This document shows, piece by piece, positions 38,721-47,202 of a stretch of 64,000 bases of DNA. How positions within the stretch are numbered: position 1 is the stretch's first letter; each line of letters starts with the position of its first letter. The stretch covers positions 434,001 to 498,000 of the forward strand of contig NZ_JAFIDN010000001.1 in assembly GCF_017921895.1 (NCBI RefSeq), written 5' to 3'. The notes beneath the pieces are model-generated. The model ran no database searches and was not told where the DNA came from. It was given only the letters and a program-made list of their open reading frames with translations. The translations under genes and the position numbers were made by a program. The DNA is from Natronogracilivirga saccharolytica (GTDB lineage Bacteria > Bacteroidota > Rhodothermia > Balneolales > Natronogracilivirgulaceae).

Positions 38721-41094
38721 CTACTGTACCAGCATCATGGTACGTGTCTGCTGGTAACTCTCCGTGCGCAGACGATAGAGTAAAACACCGCTGGCCAGTT
38801 CCCTGGCCCGAAAGTATACCGTATGATTGCCCGGATCCATAACCCTGTCCAGCAAGGTCTGGACATGCCGGCCGGTTACATCATAAACATCGATCCGGAC
38901 CTGCTGCTGCTCAGGAATATCAAATTGGATTGTGGTTATGTCGTTGAACGGATTGGGGTAGTTCTGATGCAGTTTGACACGCTCCGGTTTATCATCTCTG
39001 TCGCCGTTGGTTACAGACCTGAAGTGAATATTATCAAGCCGGAGTTTATCAGCCTCCAGAGTATCCGGCTGCACCTCATCGTCACTGAGACCGTATCGCC
39101 AAAGCAGCTGGACATACGGCCGGTCGTGCATGTCATCAGGAAGCCTGACTGTCTGTTCCAGTTCATGTCCGGCTTCACTTTCTGCCTCGTATTGCACGGG
39201 ATTACCATTCTCATCCGTAACGTCCCGGAATTCTCCCTCATCACCGATGCGATACTGAAGGCGCCAGCTGTAAATTCCGGTTCCCGGCTGCACGGTTCCT
39301 CCCGTCCAACTCAACTCGTAATTGTCATCGGTGCGGGTATCCAGGGCAAACAACACGCCACCGAGGCGGTTTTCAGGATACATTTCTTCATCGTCACCCG
39401 ATGGTGCATTCACCATGGCAAGGCCGTTCTCACCAAGACCATTTATGCGCGTACCCAACTGCTGATTGTAGCCTCCTTCTGTAAAGCCGGCGACCGGTGT
39501 TTGCGGGCCGCCGTTTTCTTCCTCCATGTAAACAAAAGCCATGTTGTCAGGATAAACGGCGACGGAAGTGTCCGGACTCCAGTATCCGAACCGGCAGTCT
39601 GTGTTTGCGAGCTGACAGGGATCGGGAAACCGCTCTTCGCCATCGGGAATAAATACCGCCTTGAGTGCGGTATCCTCTTCCGGATCGATGGTTATTCGCC
39701 TTTTCTCAGCTTCGGAACCATCCACTCCTTCCCAGTGAGAAAATTCAAATCCCGGTTCCGGCTCGGCCTCGAGCGTGACAGGAATTCCGGTGAAGTAATG
39801 CCCGTGCCACGGATAAAGTTCATCACCGGCACCCTCTACACCCGGCTCCACAGTGATCGTATTCACAGTAATGGAACCGTGACGATCACCAGAAGCATCC
39901 AGTTTTAATACGTAATCATCCTGAAGGTCAAAATTGTCTATGATATGCTGCCGCTGAATCTCCGGGCGCCGGTTGCCGTATTCGATAAAATCGTCAGCAC
40001 TGTTGCGTGTAGTGAGGGGATAAGCCCAACGATCTTCATGAAAGGGTATCATGTAGGCAATCCGGTCATACTCCTGCTGAACCACCGAACGCACATGATC
40101 CTTGTTGAAGGTTGTATTCATCAGATCCGCAAACCGGTTCAGGAACAGGTGATAAAACTCCTGGTTTTCAAGCAGGTTTCGCAGCAGGGCCGTCCGGTCC
40201 GCACCTCCGAAATCATATGGCGGTTCTCCGCCGCCCTCGGGAGAAATGGCATTGTAAAGCAGGTCATATTCGAGGTTGCGTTTTAATCCGGCCTCGTCAA
40301 AATCCCAGACCAGATACCGCCACCTTCCGTCCTCGTAAGGCCCCTCACCGGTATCCCGCGCACGCCAGAGCCGGAAATGCCTTGATCCGTACCAATCTAC
40401 ATTCCCGAGGTAGATGAACACAACATTGAAATCAATGTAGCTCATGATATCAAGTTTTTCCGTCATCCCGGCGTAGTGATCCGGATCGGAAAGATCATTA
40501 TCCACGGCATGACGATACATGTCCAGATACAAAACAAAGTCCTCAGGGTAACCTTCCTCTACACGGCCAGGATGATTTTCACCGTACGGACCCTGTATCA
40601 TAACCACATTGTCTTCATGTACGCCATAGTTATAGCGAATGTGAAACCGATCAAAACGATCCCGGAGATAGACCAGGCCCCAGTACTCACCATTGATCAT
40701 GTGATGCATGGCTTTGCTTCGCTGTGACCCGGCGTATGCCGGCTCCATCAGACGATGTGCGGCAATATCATTCAGATAGTCTCTGAGGTTTCCGTTCGTT
40801 CGCATGAGCAGCCGGTTGAACGTGTCCAGCGGTTTGTTTTCCGCCTTGTCTTCAGCACCGGCAAAGAACTGATAGTTGAAACGGTTTTCGAAGTCGTATT
40901 GCCCGCGCGCATAGAGCCGGAACGACTTGATGTCATTGTTGCGTGAACCGCCGCCATGAATCCGCATACCGGCATTCTGCGAAAAAAAGGATCCCTGTCC
41001 GGGGTCAATAAAATCTATGTGAACCGGACGCTCCCAGTCATGGCCCCGCTGCTGATAATTACCGGCAGAAACAAAGTCATTCTCCTGTCCCCCT
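38721..41094 (-). pseudogene. CotH-family secreted protein, C-terminal part (frameshifted gene)
   Basis: The 3' part of a CotH-like gene split by a frameshift near the C5 run at 41089-41093. In its frame the sequence reads NDFVSAGNYQQRGHDWERPV, then HIDFIDPGQGSFFSQNAG and MRIHGGGSRNNDIKSFRLYA, the CotH kinase core; this joins to YWGLVYLRDRFDRFHIR and WDFDEAGL further on. A beta domain follows (about residues 390-480 of the fragment), and the last ~80 residues are a T9SS type A sorting domain (LHQNYPNPFNDITTIQF, VYDVTGRHVQTL). The first in-frame ATG is at 40967, in mid-domain, so independent translation is unlikely to give a proper enzyme. CotH-type kinases phosphorylate proteins or possibly glycans. 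Adding one base in the G-run restores a single ~1161-residue protein. Confidence 0.8.
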
Positions 41095-42205
41095 CATCAA
41101 AATAGATCTGGCCGGGAACGTAAATCCCGTTTTCATGGCCGAACAGATTGTCCAGCCCTGTAGTAATGGAGAGTACCGGCAGTTTAAACTGTGGTTTCCC
41201 CGGGCCTTCAGGGATGTAGGTGGCAGTGGCGGTCGGACCAGTTTGCCCGTTCTTGTAGACCGCAGCACGAACCACCCGTGCTTTCAGCAAGTCTTCAGGC
41301 GGGCGATGCCACAAGTGGCGCCCGCGGGATTTATCGTAAGTAGTGATGATATCAGCGGCAATATTACCAGAGTCGGTGCGGTCTGACAGGGTAAGCGGCC
41401 CGTCATAGATATAGGTGCGATTGGTTTTCCCGACAATCTGTTTTTCGCTGTCTTCACCGGGGAAAAAGTAAGCTACAGAAAAGGATTCGCCCTGGCCGTT
41501 CAGATTTGCAGGATCCGGCTCGGAGCCGTCAAGCGTGTACAGAATGGTGGCCTCGGGGTCATCGGCATGGATCGAAACTTCAATTTCATCTTCAAAAAAT
41601 CCGGATGGAACGGAAATTTCCGGTGTTTCTATAAGCTCGGTCAGACCCGGCTCATCATTGGCAGCACCCGGAGTAGGATCGTAGAAAAAGTACCATTCAT
41701 CACCGCCGTCGGGATAACGGCCGAACGAAATATCGGTGGGAATGAGACGCGGCGTTATTTCGTCAAGCCTTTCTCCGGTAAATGGGTGGGTCAGAAGCAC
41801 CTCTTCACCGGCCTGGGCAATGCGGAAGTTGGTGTGCAGCGGTTCGCCGGGGTTGCGGCGGTTCTTTCCTGACGCCCATACAAGCAGATATTCACCGGGC
41901 TCTATTACGGTTCCTTCCGGAAAAAGCCATTGAAAGGGTTCGTCATAGTCATCAGACAGCCCGAAATTAGCAAGATCAACCGGCTGATCACCGCGATTGT
42001 ACAGTTCAATCCAGTCTTCGTAATCTCCGTCTTCATCAGCATTGGTAGTCGCATTTGAGGCCAGCACCTCGTTGATGACCACCGCATTGTCGTTATCACC
42101 GTCAGTATTTTGACCGGCTGCAAGTCGCTCCGGCAGAAAAGCTGTTATGAAAAATAAAACCAGAAATTGCGCAAAAAGCCGCATGTTGACGGGGGTATTA
42201 CTCAC
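41015..42205 (-). pseudogene. CotH-family secreted protein, N-terminal part (frameshifted gene)
   Basis: The 5' part of the same gene. It encodes a signal peptide (FAQFLVLFFITAFLPERLAA), a lamin-tail domain (VVINEVLASNATTNADEDGD, DWIELYNRG), a chitobiase/E-set type domain with YTLDGSEPDPANL, and the start of CotH (LPVLSITTGLDNLFGHENGI, YVPGQIYFDEG). It then leaves frame and ends at 41015. The GTG start at 42205 overlaps the stop of the GH97 gene (GTGA); an ATG at 42184 is an alternative just before the signal. The coupling to GH97 suggests joint expression. The product, if truncated, would be exported but lack the kinase core. Confidence 0.8.
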
Positions 42206-44586: not shown

Positions 44587-45870
44587 ATGACATCACCCGC
44601 CAAACCACTGGTATGTATACTTGTGCTTGTTCTGCTGAGTACGTCCGCCTCGCTCCGGGCTCAGGAAAAACCGACTGCTTTCACCGGCGGAACCATCATC
44701 ACCGTAACCGGTGACACATATGACAACGGGGTTCTGCTTGTTCAGGACGGCACTATTGCGGATGTGGGCGCATCCGGAGATGTCAGCATTCCCGGTAATG
44801 CAGAGGTCCGGGATGTTTCAGGAAAGGTGATGATGCCGGGGCTCGTCGATCCGCATTCCCATATCGGCGAAGGTGAAGGCGGAGACCGGTCCGACGCGCT
44901 GCATCCCGATGTGCGCATACTCGACACCATCGACCCGAAAAGCGACTCATTCCGGCGGGCACTGGCCGGTGGGGTCACCTCGGTAAATGTCATGCCGGGG
45001 TCGGGACACCTTATCAGCGGACAGACCGTCTATCTCAAGCTGCGTCCGTCCCGCAAAATTGAGGACATGCTGATGTATGTGGATGAGGAGGAGGAAATCT
45101 ATGGCGGACTGAAGGTTGCCAACGGGACCAACCCGCTGCATGAGCCGCCGTTTCCCGGAACCAGAGCCAAATCGGCAGCCTTGTACCGTGCACTGTTCGT
45201 GCGGGCAGAGGAATACCGGGACAAGATCAGGGCTGCTGACGGAGATGCTGACCGCATGCCTTCCCGCGACCTGGCCCTTGAAACACTGGTTGAGGTACTT
45301 GAAGGACGCAGAATCGTGCACAATCACACGCACCGGCATGATGATATTCTCACGGCCATCCGACTGGCCGATGAGTTCGGGTACCGCATGGTGCTGCATC
45401 ATGTTACCGATGCCTGGAAGGTTGCAGATGTTATCGCAGAATCGGGTTATCCCGCATCCATCATCTATATTGATGCCCCGGGAGGCAAGATGGAAGCCGT
45501 TAATCTGCTGCCAAAAGCCGGGCCGGTTCTGGAGAAAGCCGGCGCAGAGTTTGGCTTTCATACCGATGACGGAGTTACGGATTCGCGTCTTTTCCTGAGA
45601 TCGCCGGCATTTGCCATGCGGGAAGGCATGAGCCGCCAAATGGCACTGGAGTCGGTGACCATCGCCAACGCCCGGCAAATGGACATAGATGACCGCACCG
45701 GTTCACTTGAGCCGGGAAAGGATGCCGACTTTATCCTGATCAGCGGCGATCCGTTCAGTGTTTACACCCGTATTCTTCAGACCTGGATTGAAGGACAGAA
45801 AGTCTGGGATTTTGATGATTCCGATGACCGCAAACATGCTTTAGGCGGATACAAGATCAGAGAGGAGTGA
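44587..45870 (+). CDS. Exported amidohydrolase, catalytically complete member of a tandem pair
   Basis: About 427 residues from the ATG at 44587 (a longer frame begins at 44530), starting with a signal peptide (LVCILVLVLLSTSASLRAQ). It is an imidazolonepropionase-like metal-dependent hydrolase: GLVDPHSHIGEGEGG carries the HxH metal motif; RRIVHNHTHRHDDILTAI and MVLHHVTDAWK carry the next His residues; GFHTDDGVTDSR carries the metal Asp. SLEPGKDADFILISGDPFS closes the beta domain. The substrate is unknown. Six bases after its stop begins the long frame of the second amidohydrolase, whose real start is 45958 or so. The two very probably form one operon and perhaps one heteromeric enzyme. Confidence 0.88.
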   Translation: MTSPAKPLVCILVLVLLSTSASLRAQEKPTAFTGGTIITVTGDTYDNGVLLVQDGTIADVGASGDVSIPGNAEVRDVSGKVMMPGLVDPHSHIGEGEGGDRSDALHPDVRILDTIDPKSDSFRRALAGGVTSVNVMPGSGHLISGQTVYLKLRPSRKIEDMLMYVDEEEEIYGGLKVANGTNPLHEPPFPGTRAKSAALYRALFVRAEEYRDKIRAADGDADRMPSRDLALETLVEVLEGRRIVHNHTHRHDDILTAIRLADEFGYRMVLHHVTDAWKVADVIAESGYPASIIYIDAPGGKMEAVNLLPKAGPVLEKAGAEFGFHTDDGVTDSRLFLRSPAFAMREGMSRQMALESVTIANARQMDIDDRTGSLEPGKDADFILISGDPFSVYTRILQTWIEGQKVWDFDDSDDRKHALGGYKIREE

Positions 45871-45957
45871 ACATTTTTGGAAAGCAGATCAACCGGATGC
45901 CGCGCTTCAGAAAAATCCTTATCGAACCGGAGAATGTATACTTCAAAACATAACACC

Positions 45958-47202
45958 ATGACTTTACCTTGCGACAAATTACCGGCCCTTGTTTTCATCA
46001 TACTTCTTGCTGCCGGACTTTTATCCGATGAACTTTATGCTCAAAAAGCTGTAAAGGGCGACACGGTTTACACCATGGAAGGGGAACCCGTGGAAAACGG
46101 AGTGGTGCTTATCAGAGATGGAAAAATTGAACAGGTGGGACCGGCAGAGGAGATTACGATTCCGGACGGTTATGAAACATTTCAGGGCTCCGTTGTCACT
46201 CCGGGACTTATCGATGCCCGAACGGTCGTCGGTCTGGCAGGTTATTACAACCAGGATCACGACCAGGACCAGCTTGATCTTACTCATGCCATTCAGCCGG
46301 AACTCCGTGCCATTGATGCCTACAATGCCCGTGAAGAGCTTGTTGGTTTTCTGCGTGACAACGGCATCACGACGATGCATACCGGTCATGCACCCGGTGC
46401 GGTGATCAGCGGTCAGACCATGATTGTCAAAACGACCGGCCGAACGGTGGATGATGCTATCGTGGATTCCACTACTGCTCTTGCAATTACTCTCGGATCC
46501 GTAGTCAGGAATAATTTTGACACTCCCGGAACCCGCTCCAAAGGTATTGCCATGTTCCGGCAGGAACTGATCCGTGCTCAGGAGTATGCCGGGCGGCGAA
46601 ATAACGAAGACCCGGACAGGCGTCCTGACCGGGATCTTGGTCTTGATGCCATTGTGGATATGCTAGAGGGCCGGATCTCAGCTTTGATTACGGCGCACCG
46701 TTCCCGGGATATTATGGCAGCACTGCGTCTTCAGCGCGAGTTCGGTTTTCCGCTTATACTTGATGGAGGCGCTGAAGCCTACGTGCTGAAAGACGAACTG
46801 AAGGAAGCGGGTGTTCCGGTTATCATACATCCGACAATGGTCCGGACAGGAGGTGACACGGAAAATGCGGCATTTGACACTGCAAAGAGGGTAAGCGAGG
46901 CGGGTATTCCGGTGGTATTTCAAAGCGGATATGAGCCCTATGTGCCAAAGACGCGGGTGGCTTTGTTTGAGGCCGGTATTTCTGCAGGTTACGGTATGGA
47001 CCGGGTGGAGGCTCTTCGGTCACTGACCATCAGTTCCGCAGAAATCCTTGGAATAGACGACAGAACCGGGTCGCTTGCAGAAGGCAAAGATGCAGATGTA
47101 GTGATTTTTGACGGAGATCCGTTTGAGTATACGAGCCGGCCGACACACGTATTTATTGATGGAACTCAGTTTCCTGCACCGGATCCGGTTCAGAATCAGT
47201 AG
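45958..47202 (+). CDS. Amidohydrolase-like protein lacking the metal-binding motif
   Basis: About 414 residues from the ATG at 45958 (frame open from 45877), with a signal peptide (ALVFIILLAAGLLSDELYAQ). The fold markers of amidohydrolases are present (NGVVLIRDGKIEQVGPAEEI, TPGLIDARTVVGLAG, ISGQTMIVKTTG, SLAEGKDADVVIFDGDPF). The HxH of the first metal site is replaced by DARTV. The later His pair is reduced to LITAHRSRDIMAAL and ILDGGAEAY, and the Asp site reads FQSGYEPYVPK. It is thus probably a non-catalytic partner of the preceding enzyme or a protein with a new role. Its last 50 bases overlap the convergent sensor kinase gene. Confidence 0.85.
   Translation: MTLPCDKLPALVFIILLAAGLLSDELYAQKAVKGDTVYTMEGEPVENGVVLIRDGKIEQVGPAEEITIPDGYETFQGSVVTPGLIDARTVVGLAGYYNQDHDQDQLDLTHAIQPELRAIDAYNAREELVGFLRDNGITTMHTGHAPGAVISGQTMIVKTTGRTVDDAIVDSTTALAITLGSVVRNNFDTPGTRSKGIAMFRQELIRAQEYAGRRNNEDPDRRPDRDLGLDAIVDMLEGRISALITAHRSRDIMAALRLQREFGFPLILDGGAEAYVLKDELKEAGVPVIIHPTMVRTGGDTENAAFDTAKRVSEAGIPVVFQSGYEPYVPKTRVALFEAGISAGYGMDRVEALRSLTISSAEILGIDDRTGSLAEGKDADVVIFDGDPFEYTSRPTHVFIDGTQFPAPDPVQNQ

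Follow-up and report, generated by a model that had tools for sequence, protein, structure and literature searches.

The two tandem genes analysed here, ACT and PSE, encode a pair of amidohydrolase paralogues, the first with a complete set of metal ligands and the second with none of them. With a probability of about two in three, we propose that their products form a periplasmic heteromer composed of a catalytic subunit and an obligatory non-catalytic pseudoenzyme subunit; the physical association, the role of PSE and the substrate class are what we infer. PSE is probably required as a partner and not simply a defunct copy. It falls into the pseudoenzyme class, since catalytic residues are lost while the protein is conserved and linked to an active relative. 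An earlier note on this DNA had suggested a catalytic subunit with a pseudoenzyme partner, and ligand loss and linkage, as read from the sequences, support this as the best reading.

In the proposed mechanism, ACT would be a binuclear-type metal-dependent amidohydrolase cleaving an amide- or peptide-like substrate. An amide or small peptide bond as its target is a guess, made by analogy with the next-nearest folds. PSE would be an ancient ACT paralogue which has kept the whole fold and lost the metal centre. Its role might be to complete the oligomer, to stabilise ACT, or to bind a regulator or a portion of the substrate within a remodelled pocket.

Both open reading frames lie on the same strand of the window (the whole 64,000-nt stretch of Natronogracilivirga saccharolytica DNA that was analysed) and share one reading frame (Table 1). 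No terminator-like site was among those predicted in the gap between them. Each protein carries a signal-peptide-like N-terminus ending in AQ, as judged by inspection, and the two are about 35% identical over their alignment, which bears out the earlier description of two exported paralogues. In a six-frame search of the window's own genome, ACT and PSE paired only with each other (E about 1e-52), and no further protein matched either of them at comparable strength.

Table 1. Features of the ACT/PSE locus, in window coordinates
Feature	Position	Strand	Basis or occurrence
ACT, catalytic-type amidohydrolase, 427 aa, with export-type N-terminus	44587..45870	+	Pfam, PDB 3ooq, six intact ligand positions
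ACT alternative start, upstream ATG	44530	+	
ACT H90-S91-H92 (HxH, strand 1)	44854..44862	+	H in 88/91 ACT rows, 3 gaps
ACT K176 (strand 4)	45112..45114	+	K in 91/91 ACT rows, 0/95 PSE rows
ACT H247 (strand 5)	45325..45327	+	91/91 ACT rows, 0/95 PSE rows
ACT H272 (strand 6)	45400..45402	+	91/91 ACT rows, 0/95 PSE rows; Gly in window PSE
ACT D327 (strand 8)	45565..45567	+	91/91 ACT rows; E in 95/95 PSE rows
ACT-PSE gap, 87 nt, ACT stop (TGA) to PSE ATG	45871..45957	+	read from sequence
PSE, amidohydrolase paralogue without metal ligands, 414 aa, with export-type N-terminus	45958..47202	+	Pfam, PDB 3ooq, AlphaFold2 model
PSE alternative start, in-frame ATG	45934	+	
PSE alternative start, TTG	45877	+	
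PSE R88-T89-V90, where ACT has HxH	46219..46227	+	95 PSE rows
PSE-specific invariant H144, end of strand 137-143	46387..46389	+	95/95 PSE rows; P in most ACT rows
PSE-specific invariant H291, end of strand 288-290	46828..46830	+	94/95 PSE rows; insertion relative to ACT
PSE-specific invariant E326, strand-8 loop	46933..46935	+	95/95 PSE rows

Both proteins score above the cut-off of 25 bits for Pfam Amidohydro_1 (PF01979), with 57.5 bits for ACT and 44.4 bits for PSE; ACT is also over the cut-off for Amidohydro_3 (61.3 bits). The closest PDB relative of both is 3ooq, which ACT matches over its whole length with an E-value of 1.4e-54 and PSE with 2.5e-45. The AlphaFold2 model of PSE (pLDDT 93.7, pTM 0.91) superposes on 3ooq_A with a Z of 51.7 and an rmsd of 1.8 over 374 residues, the next entry reaching Z 26.5. 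As modelled, PSE is thus an intact 3ooq-like fold over the whole chain. Two more specific identities were considered and rejected: imidazolonepropionase HutI (TIGR01224; 52.2 bits for ACT and 48.4 for PSE against a cut-off of 298) and Xaa-Pro dipeptidase (NF051886; cut-off 500, with 64.2 bits for ACT and 59.2 for PSE). The comparison with imidazolonepropionase-like structures proposed in the earlier note is only a distant one, the nearest structure being 3ooq.

ACT has all six ligand positions of the binuclear type (H90, H92, K176, H247, H272 and D327), the same set as 3ooq (HHKHHD). All six are present in 88 of 91 ACT rows and the remaining 3 are gapped, in row sets which leave out five partial or foreign ACT matches below 300 bits (L100, L113, L118 and two in L078) and in which some contigs stand twice, the same genome occurring in two collections. 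The motifs DPHSH, HNHTH and HTDD were correctly quoted for ACT in the earlier note; K176 and the strand-6 H272 add two more ligand positions. K176, presumably the carboxylated bridging lysine (a role we take from related binuclear amidohydrolases), lies in GGLKVANG, the counterpart of GLKMAFG in 3ooq. This lysine also occurs in the catalytic domains of the three-part systems described below and is replaced by alanine in PSE. By analogy with related dipeptidases, K176 points to ACT having a carboxylated lysine in a binuclear centre.

None of the six ligands is present in the window PSE, whose residues in those columns are R, V, A, T, G and E. The motifs noted earlier at the corresponding places (DARTV, ITAHRS and QSGYEP) are likewise exact. 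Among the 95 PSE rows, 55 keep one ligand, the first His, and 40 keep none: the first His column is H in 55 and R in 40, and the second is V in 69, T in 21, S in 4 and C in 1. The Glu at the D327 column adjoins a 2-residue gap, and its register is uncertain. This loss is not a matter of chance, because it is common to all 95 PSE rows and is seen in none of the 91 ACT rows. When alternative ligands were sought in PSE, no substitute for the classical set was found in the same columns of the 95 rows.

PSE nevertheless has conserved residues of its own. H144, H291 and E326 lie near the ends of strands 2, 7 and 8, and Y328 (95/95), E338 (95/95), R296 (93/95), K331 (90/95) and H141 (84/95) are also conserved. 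The invariant H144, H291, E326, Y328 and E338 may serve another activity and not the structure. One could imagine that PSE has been repurposed. Its pocket would have been rebuilt from H144, H291 and E326, with H141, R296 and K331, perhaps to bind a ligand or to carry a relocated 2-His-1-Glu metal site, and the protein would carry out a second step, acting on ACT's product or substrate. H144, H291, E326, Y328 and E338 are near-invariant in PSE, ACT lacks them at the corresponding places, and the first three follow three different strands of the model, as such a site would have it. Conservation in PSE is also stronger at strand ends (1.07 bits) than at the remaining positions (1.37 bits; permutation p 0.012). 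However, conservation of the PSE pocket falls far short of that in ACT (0.56 bits at strand ends against 1.19 elsewhere), 11 of 95 rows have N or Q in place of H141, and alignment shows that the C-terminal pseudo domains of the three-part systems do not have the H144 motif. We regard a repurposed PSE as unlikely, though it is the main alternative to the non-catalytic partner.

It could also be supposed that PSE, having lost its ligands, is no more than a functionless duplicate in decay. Over the 89 loci with both proteins, pairwise identity averages 59% for ACT and 55% for PSE (r 0.79), which makes the divergence of PSE only about 1.1-fold that of ACT. In addition, 39 PSE columns are invariant over 56 diverse rows, the predicted fold is confident and intact, and the gene is kept beside ACT in samples of two phyla. 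This conservation refutes in practice the idea of a decaying copy, which we find scarcely credible.

The linkage between the two genes was examined in several sets of genomes. A profile search of genome contigs with PSE returned 524 relatives, the best 80 of which were scanned for ACT. Taxon labels among these 80 include Balneolales, other Bacteroidetes, Chlorobi, Calditrichaceae, Acidobacteria, Planctomycetota, Verrucomicrobia/Opitutia, Gemmatimonadetes and Proteobacteria, many of them labels of MAGs and as such no proof of origin; named strains with PSE are found among Rhodohalobacter, Pontibacter and Alkalimonas entries, those of the first two genera having the whole pair. In 78 of the best 80 of 524 loci, ACT lies directly 5' of PSE on the same strand, with a cut or split ACT reading frame in a few of the 78. 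Of the two remaining loci, one is on a contig which begins inside PSE (L138) and the other has PSE alone (L121), behind ORFs that we would name pfkA-like, MarR-like and YraN-like from their sequences. The genome of the latter (G423) keeps ACT on a separate contig (L159) and provides the only truly unlinked pair seen.

In the window's phylum, 87 of 395 genomes gave PSE and 88 gave ACT. The pairs standing side by side number 86, two of them in a single genome, and the median distance between their domain matches is 60.5 nt. The co-occurrence gives a Fisher p of 6.5e-88, a value which ignores relatedness. The exceptions are a genome with both genes at contig ends (G250), one with ACT cut at a contig end (G050) and a chimera (G222). 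In the chimera, a single ORF (L154, G222:C1:297051-298274), which scores as a match of both PSE and ACT in these counts, joins the N-terminal part of ACT to the C-terminal part of PSE. It apparently arose by deletion between the paralogues, the pair being lost there as a unit.

In a sample of 247 genomes from a second phylum, a strict threshold gave ACT in 40 and PSE in 32. The eight apparent ACT-only genomes were inspected singly. In seven (L170-L176), PSE follows ACT directly, but its profile match is divided into two parts, or nearly so, and strict thresholds missed it; in the eighth, PSE is cut by the contig end. As corrected, PSE stands beside ACT in 40 of the 40 ACT-bearing genomes. Independent occurrence of the two genes, which the earlier note had named as an argument against the pair, was not found in these sets: they are adjacent save for contig ends, one chimera and one split pair. 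At the strict threshold, 307 of 395 genomes of the window's phylum and 207 of 247 of the second have no ACT; the pair is thus absent from most genomes of both phyla and its function is dispensable in general. The two genes might also be linked because they have been transferred together as a unit.

The surroundings of the pair are variable. In the window, a divergent GH97 glycosidase gene lies upstream, and downstream are a convergently oriented sensor kinase gene and a kinase/regulator pair; genes of the GH97 or kinase type are found next to the pair in no more than 8 of 88 loci (the 80 scanned loci and L066-L073). No widely shared neighbour besides the pair itself emerged in this set, the commonest cluster of neighbouring ORFs being present in 8 of the 88, and clustering of the neighbours gave no inference about the substrate. 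As a separate observation on the window (38721-42205, - strand), an LTD-domain ORF (41015-42205) abuts a CotH ORF (38721-40967) whose CotH match begins at residue 2, as if a frameshift near 41,000 had broken one LTD-CotH protein.

Weaker relatives were found in ORFs of about 1000 aa together with further ORFs of single length, which make up three-part systems. In each of the 18 loci examined, 12 in one group (L054-L065) and six in another (L161-L166), exactly one domain has six of six ligands and two domains have 0 to 3. The order is pseudo-catalytic-pseudo, either as a fusion of the N-terminal pseudo domain to the catalytic domain followed by a separate pseudo gene (the usual fusion) or as three tandem genes. 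Many of the 18 loci have a catalytic and a pseudo domain joined in one ORF. In another layout, a separate pseudo gene is accompanied by an ORF of 977 aa (L165, 2376-5306, - strand) fusing the catalytic and C-terminal pseudo domains. The C-terminal pseudo domain at L162 (3626-5140, - strand) reads HVHHGD at the six columns, with three of six kept; judged by its sequence, it is possibly an intermediate state of ligand loss. No three-part set was seen in the window's own genome by six-frame search.

Fusion of domains is a usual sign of proteins working together. The fusions of catalytic and pseudo domains in this sister system bear on another reading, in which ACT and PSE are co-inherited members of one pathway which do not bind each other, PSE being a free periplasmic binding or scavenging protein. 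Co-occurrence and adjacency are compatible with it, as they need a functional link and not contact. Besides the fusions, the tendency of same-family proteins to share interfaces speaks against it, as does the predicted joint fold. The latter was obtained for a read-through of the window pair, using an alignment of the window with 18 loci of the pair in which the two genes also stand in one frame, and reached a mean pLDDT of 79.2 and a pTM of 0.78, compared with about 0.47 in an idealised estimate for halves left unplaced. A 44-row MAFFT joint alignment was not used for folding, as it placed homologues of both proteins on the PSE half. The model thus supports a predicted ACT-PSE contact, short of demonstrating it. 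This interface could simply be the homodimer contact of 3ooq-like entries, both proteins resembling 3ooq. Taken together, we consider a free PSE improbable and retain the heteromer as the preferred reading.

The origin of the pseudo-subunits was examined on a maximum-likelihood tree, which reused, ungapped, the rows of the 44-row joint alignment. ACT, PSE and the catalytic (BC), N-terminal pseudo (BN) and C-terminal pseudo (B2) domains of the three-part systems each occupy one side of a branch. PSE, BN and B2 group together against ACT, BC and 3ooq, with an SH-aLRT of 97.8 without outgroups and 83 with them, the outgroups being four rows on very long branches and the support being taken from a quick tree. 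A single clade of ACT and PSE is rejected (p-AU 0.021). The sequences therefore suggest that the split between enzyme and pseudoenzyme predates that between pair and triplet, a result which long branches and shared site loss could mislead. That all the pseudo-subunits of the family go back to one origin is shown in part. A wider scenario would have this exported branch of amidohydrolases built of one catalytic and one or two pseudo-subunits, with a single origin before the pair/triplet split and with a new H144/H291/E326 pocket in the PSE of the pair, giving two sites from one ancestral active site. As a whole we hold this scenario to be rather doubtful.

If the heteromer is real, a very widespread exported family, annotated merely as amidohydrolase, works as an enzyme with a pseudoenzyme. 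The catalytic gene expressed alone, as in usual enzyme screens, could then give an inactive or unstable protein, and this could explain why the substrate of ACT remains unidentified. Pair and triplet would also offer natural replicates, separate, fused, relocated in one pair and chimeric in one case, of the change from an enzyme to a non-catalytic partner.

Several known systems resemble parts of this arrangement. The Thermotoga maritima amidohydrolase 3ooq has the same fold, and its six ligand positions are found in ACT. It differs from the pair in having one type of chain (10 chains, one sequence), and PSE has none of its six ligands. We found no paper on 3ooq in the literature searched. Among the next-best folds for the PSE model are amidohydrolases of the Xaa-Pro / arginine carboxypeptidase type (3mtw, 2qs8, 3feq and 3mkv; Z about 26), enzymes with a binuclear centre and a carboxylated lysine. 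The CRMPs (dihydropyrimidinase-related proteins) are amidohydrolase-fold proteins which are non-catalytic and have kept their oligomer interfaces. CRMP entries in the PDB are weak matches to PSE; in contrast to PSE, CRMPs are animal and cytosolic, do not form an operon pair and are only weakly similar in sequence. A literature search, with subscription papers and preprints mostly outside its coverage, returned no paper on a pair or triplet of the ACT/PSE type.

A parallel to the proposed heteromer is the aspartate transcarbamoylase (ATCase) of P. aeruginosa, which is reported to need an inactive dihydroorotase homologue, pDHO, for activity and stability (PMC7053772). As described there, pDHO is an inactive homologue from the amidohydrolase superfamily acting as a partner, as PSE is proposed to be. 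No aspartate transcarbamoylase accompanies PSE, whose only conserved neighbour is its catalytic paralogue. The active partner of pDHO is the unrelated ATCase, whereas that of PSE would be a catalytic paralogue of the same family, both proteins carrying export-type N-termini. Inactive partners with an amidohydrolase fold are thus already known, and what would be new here is that the active partner is a paralogue.
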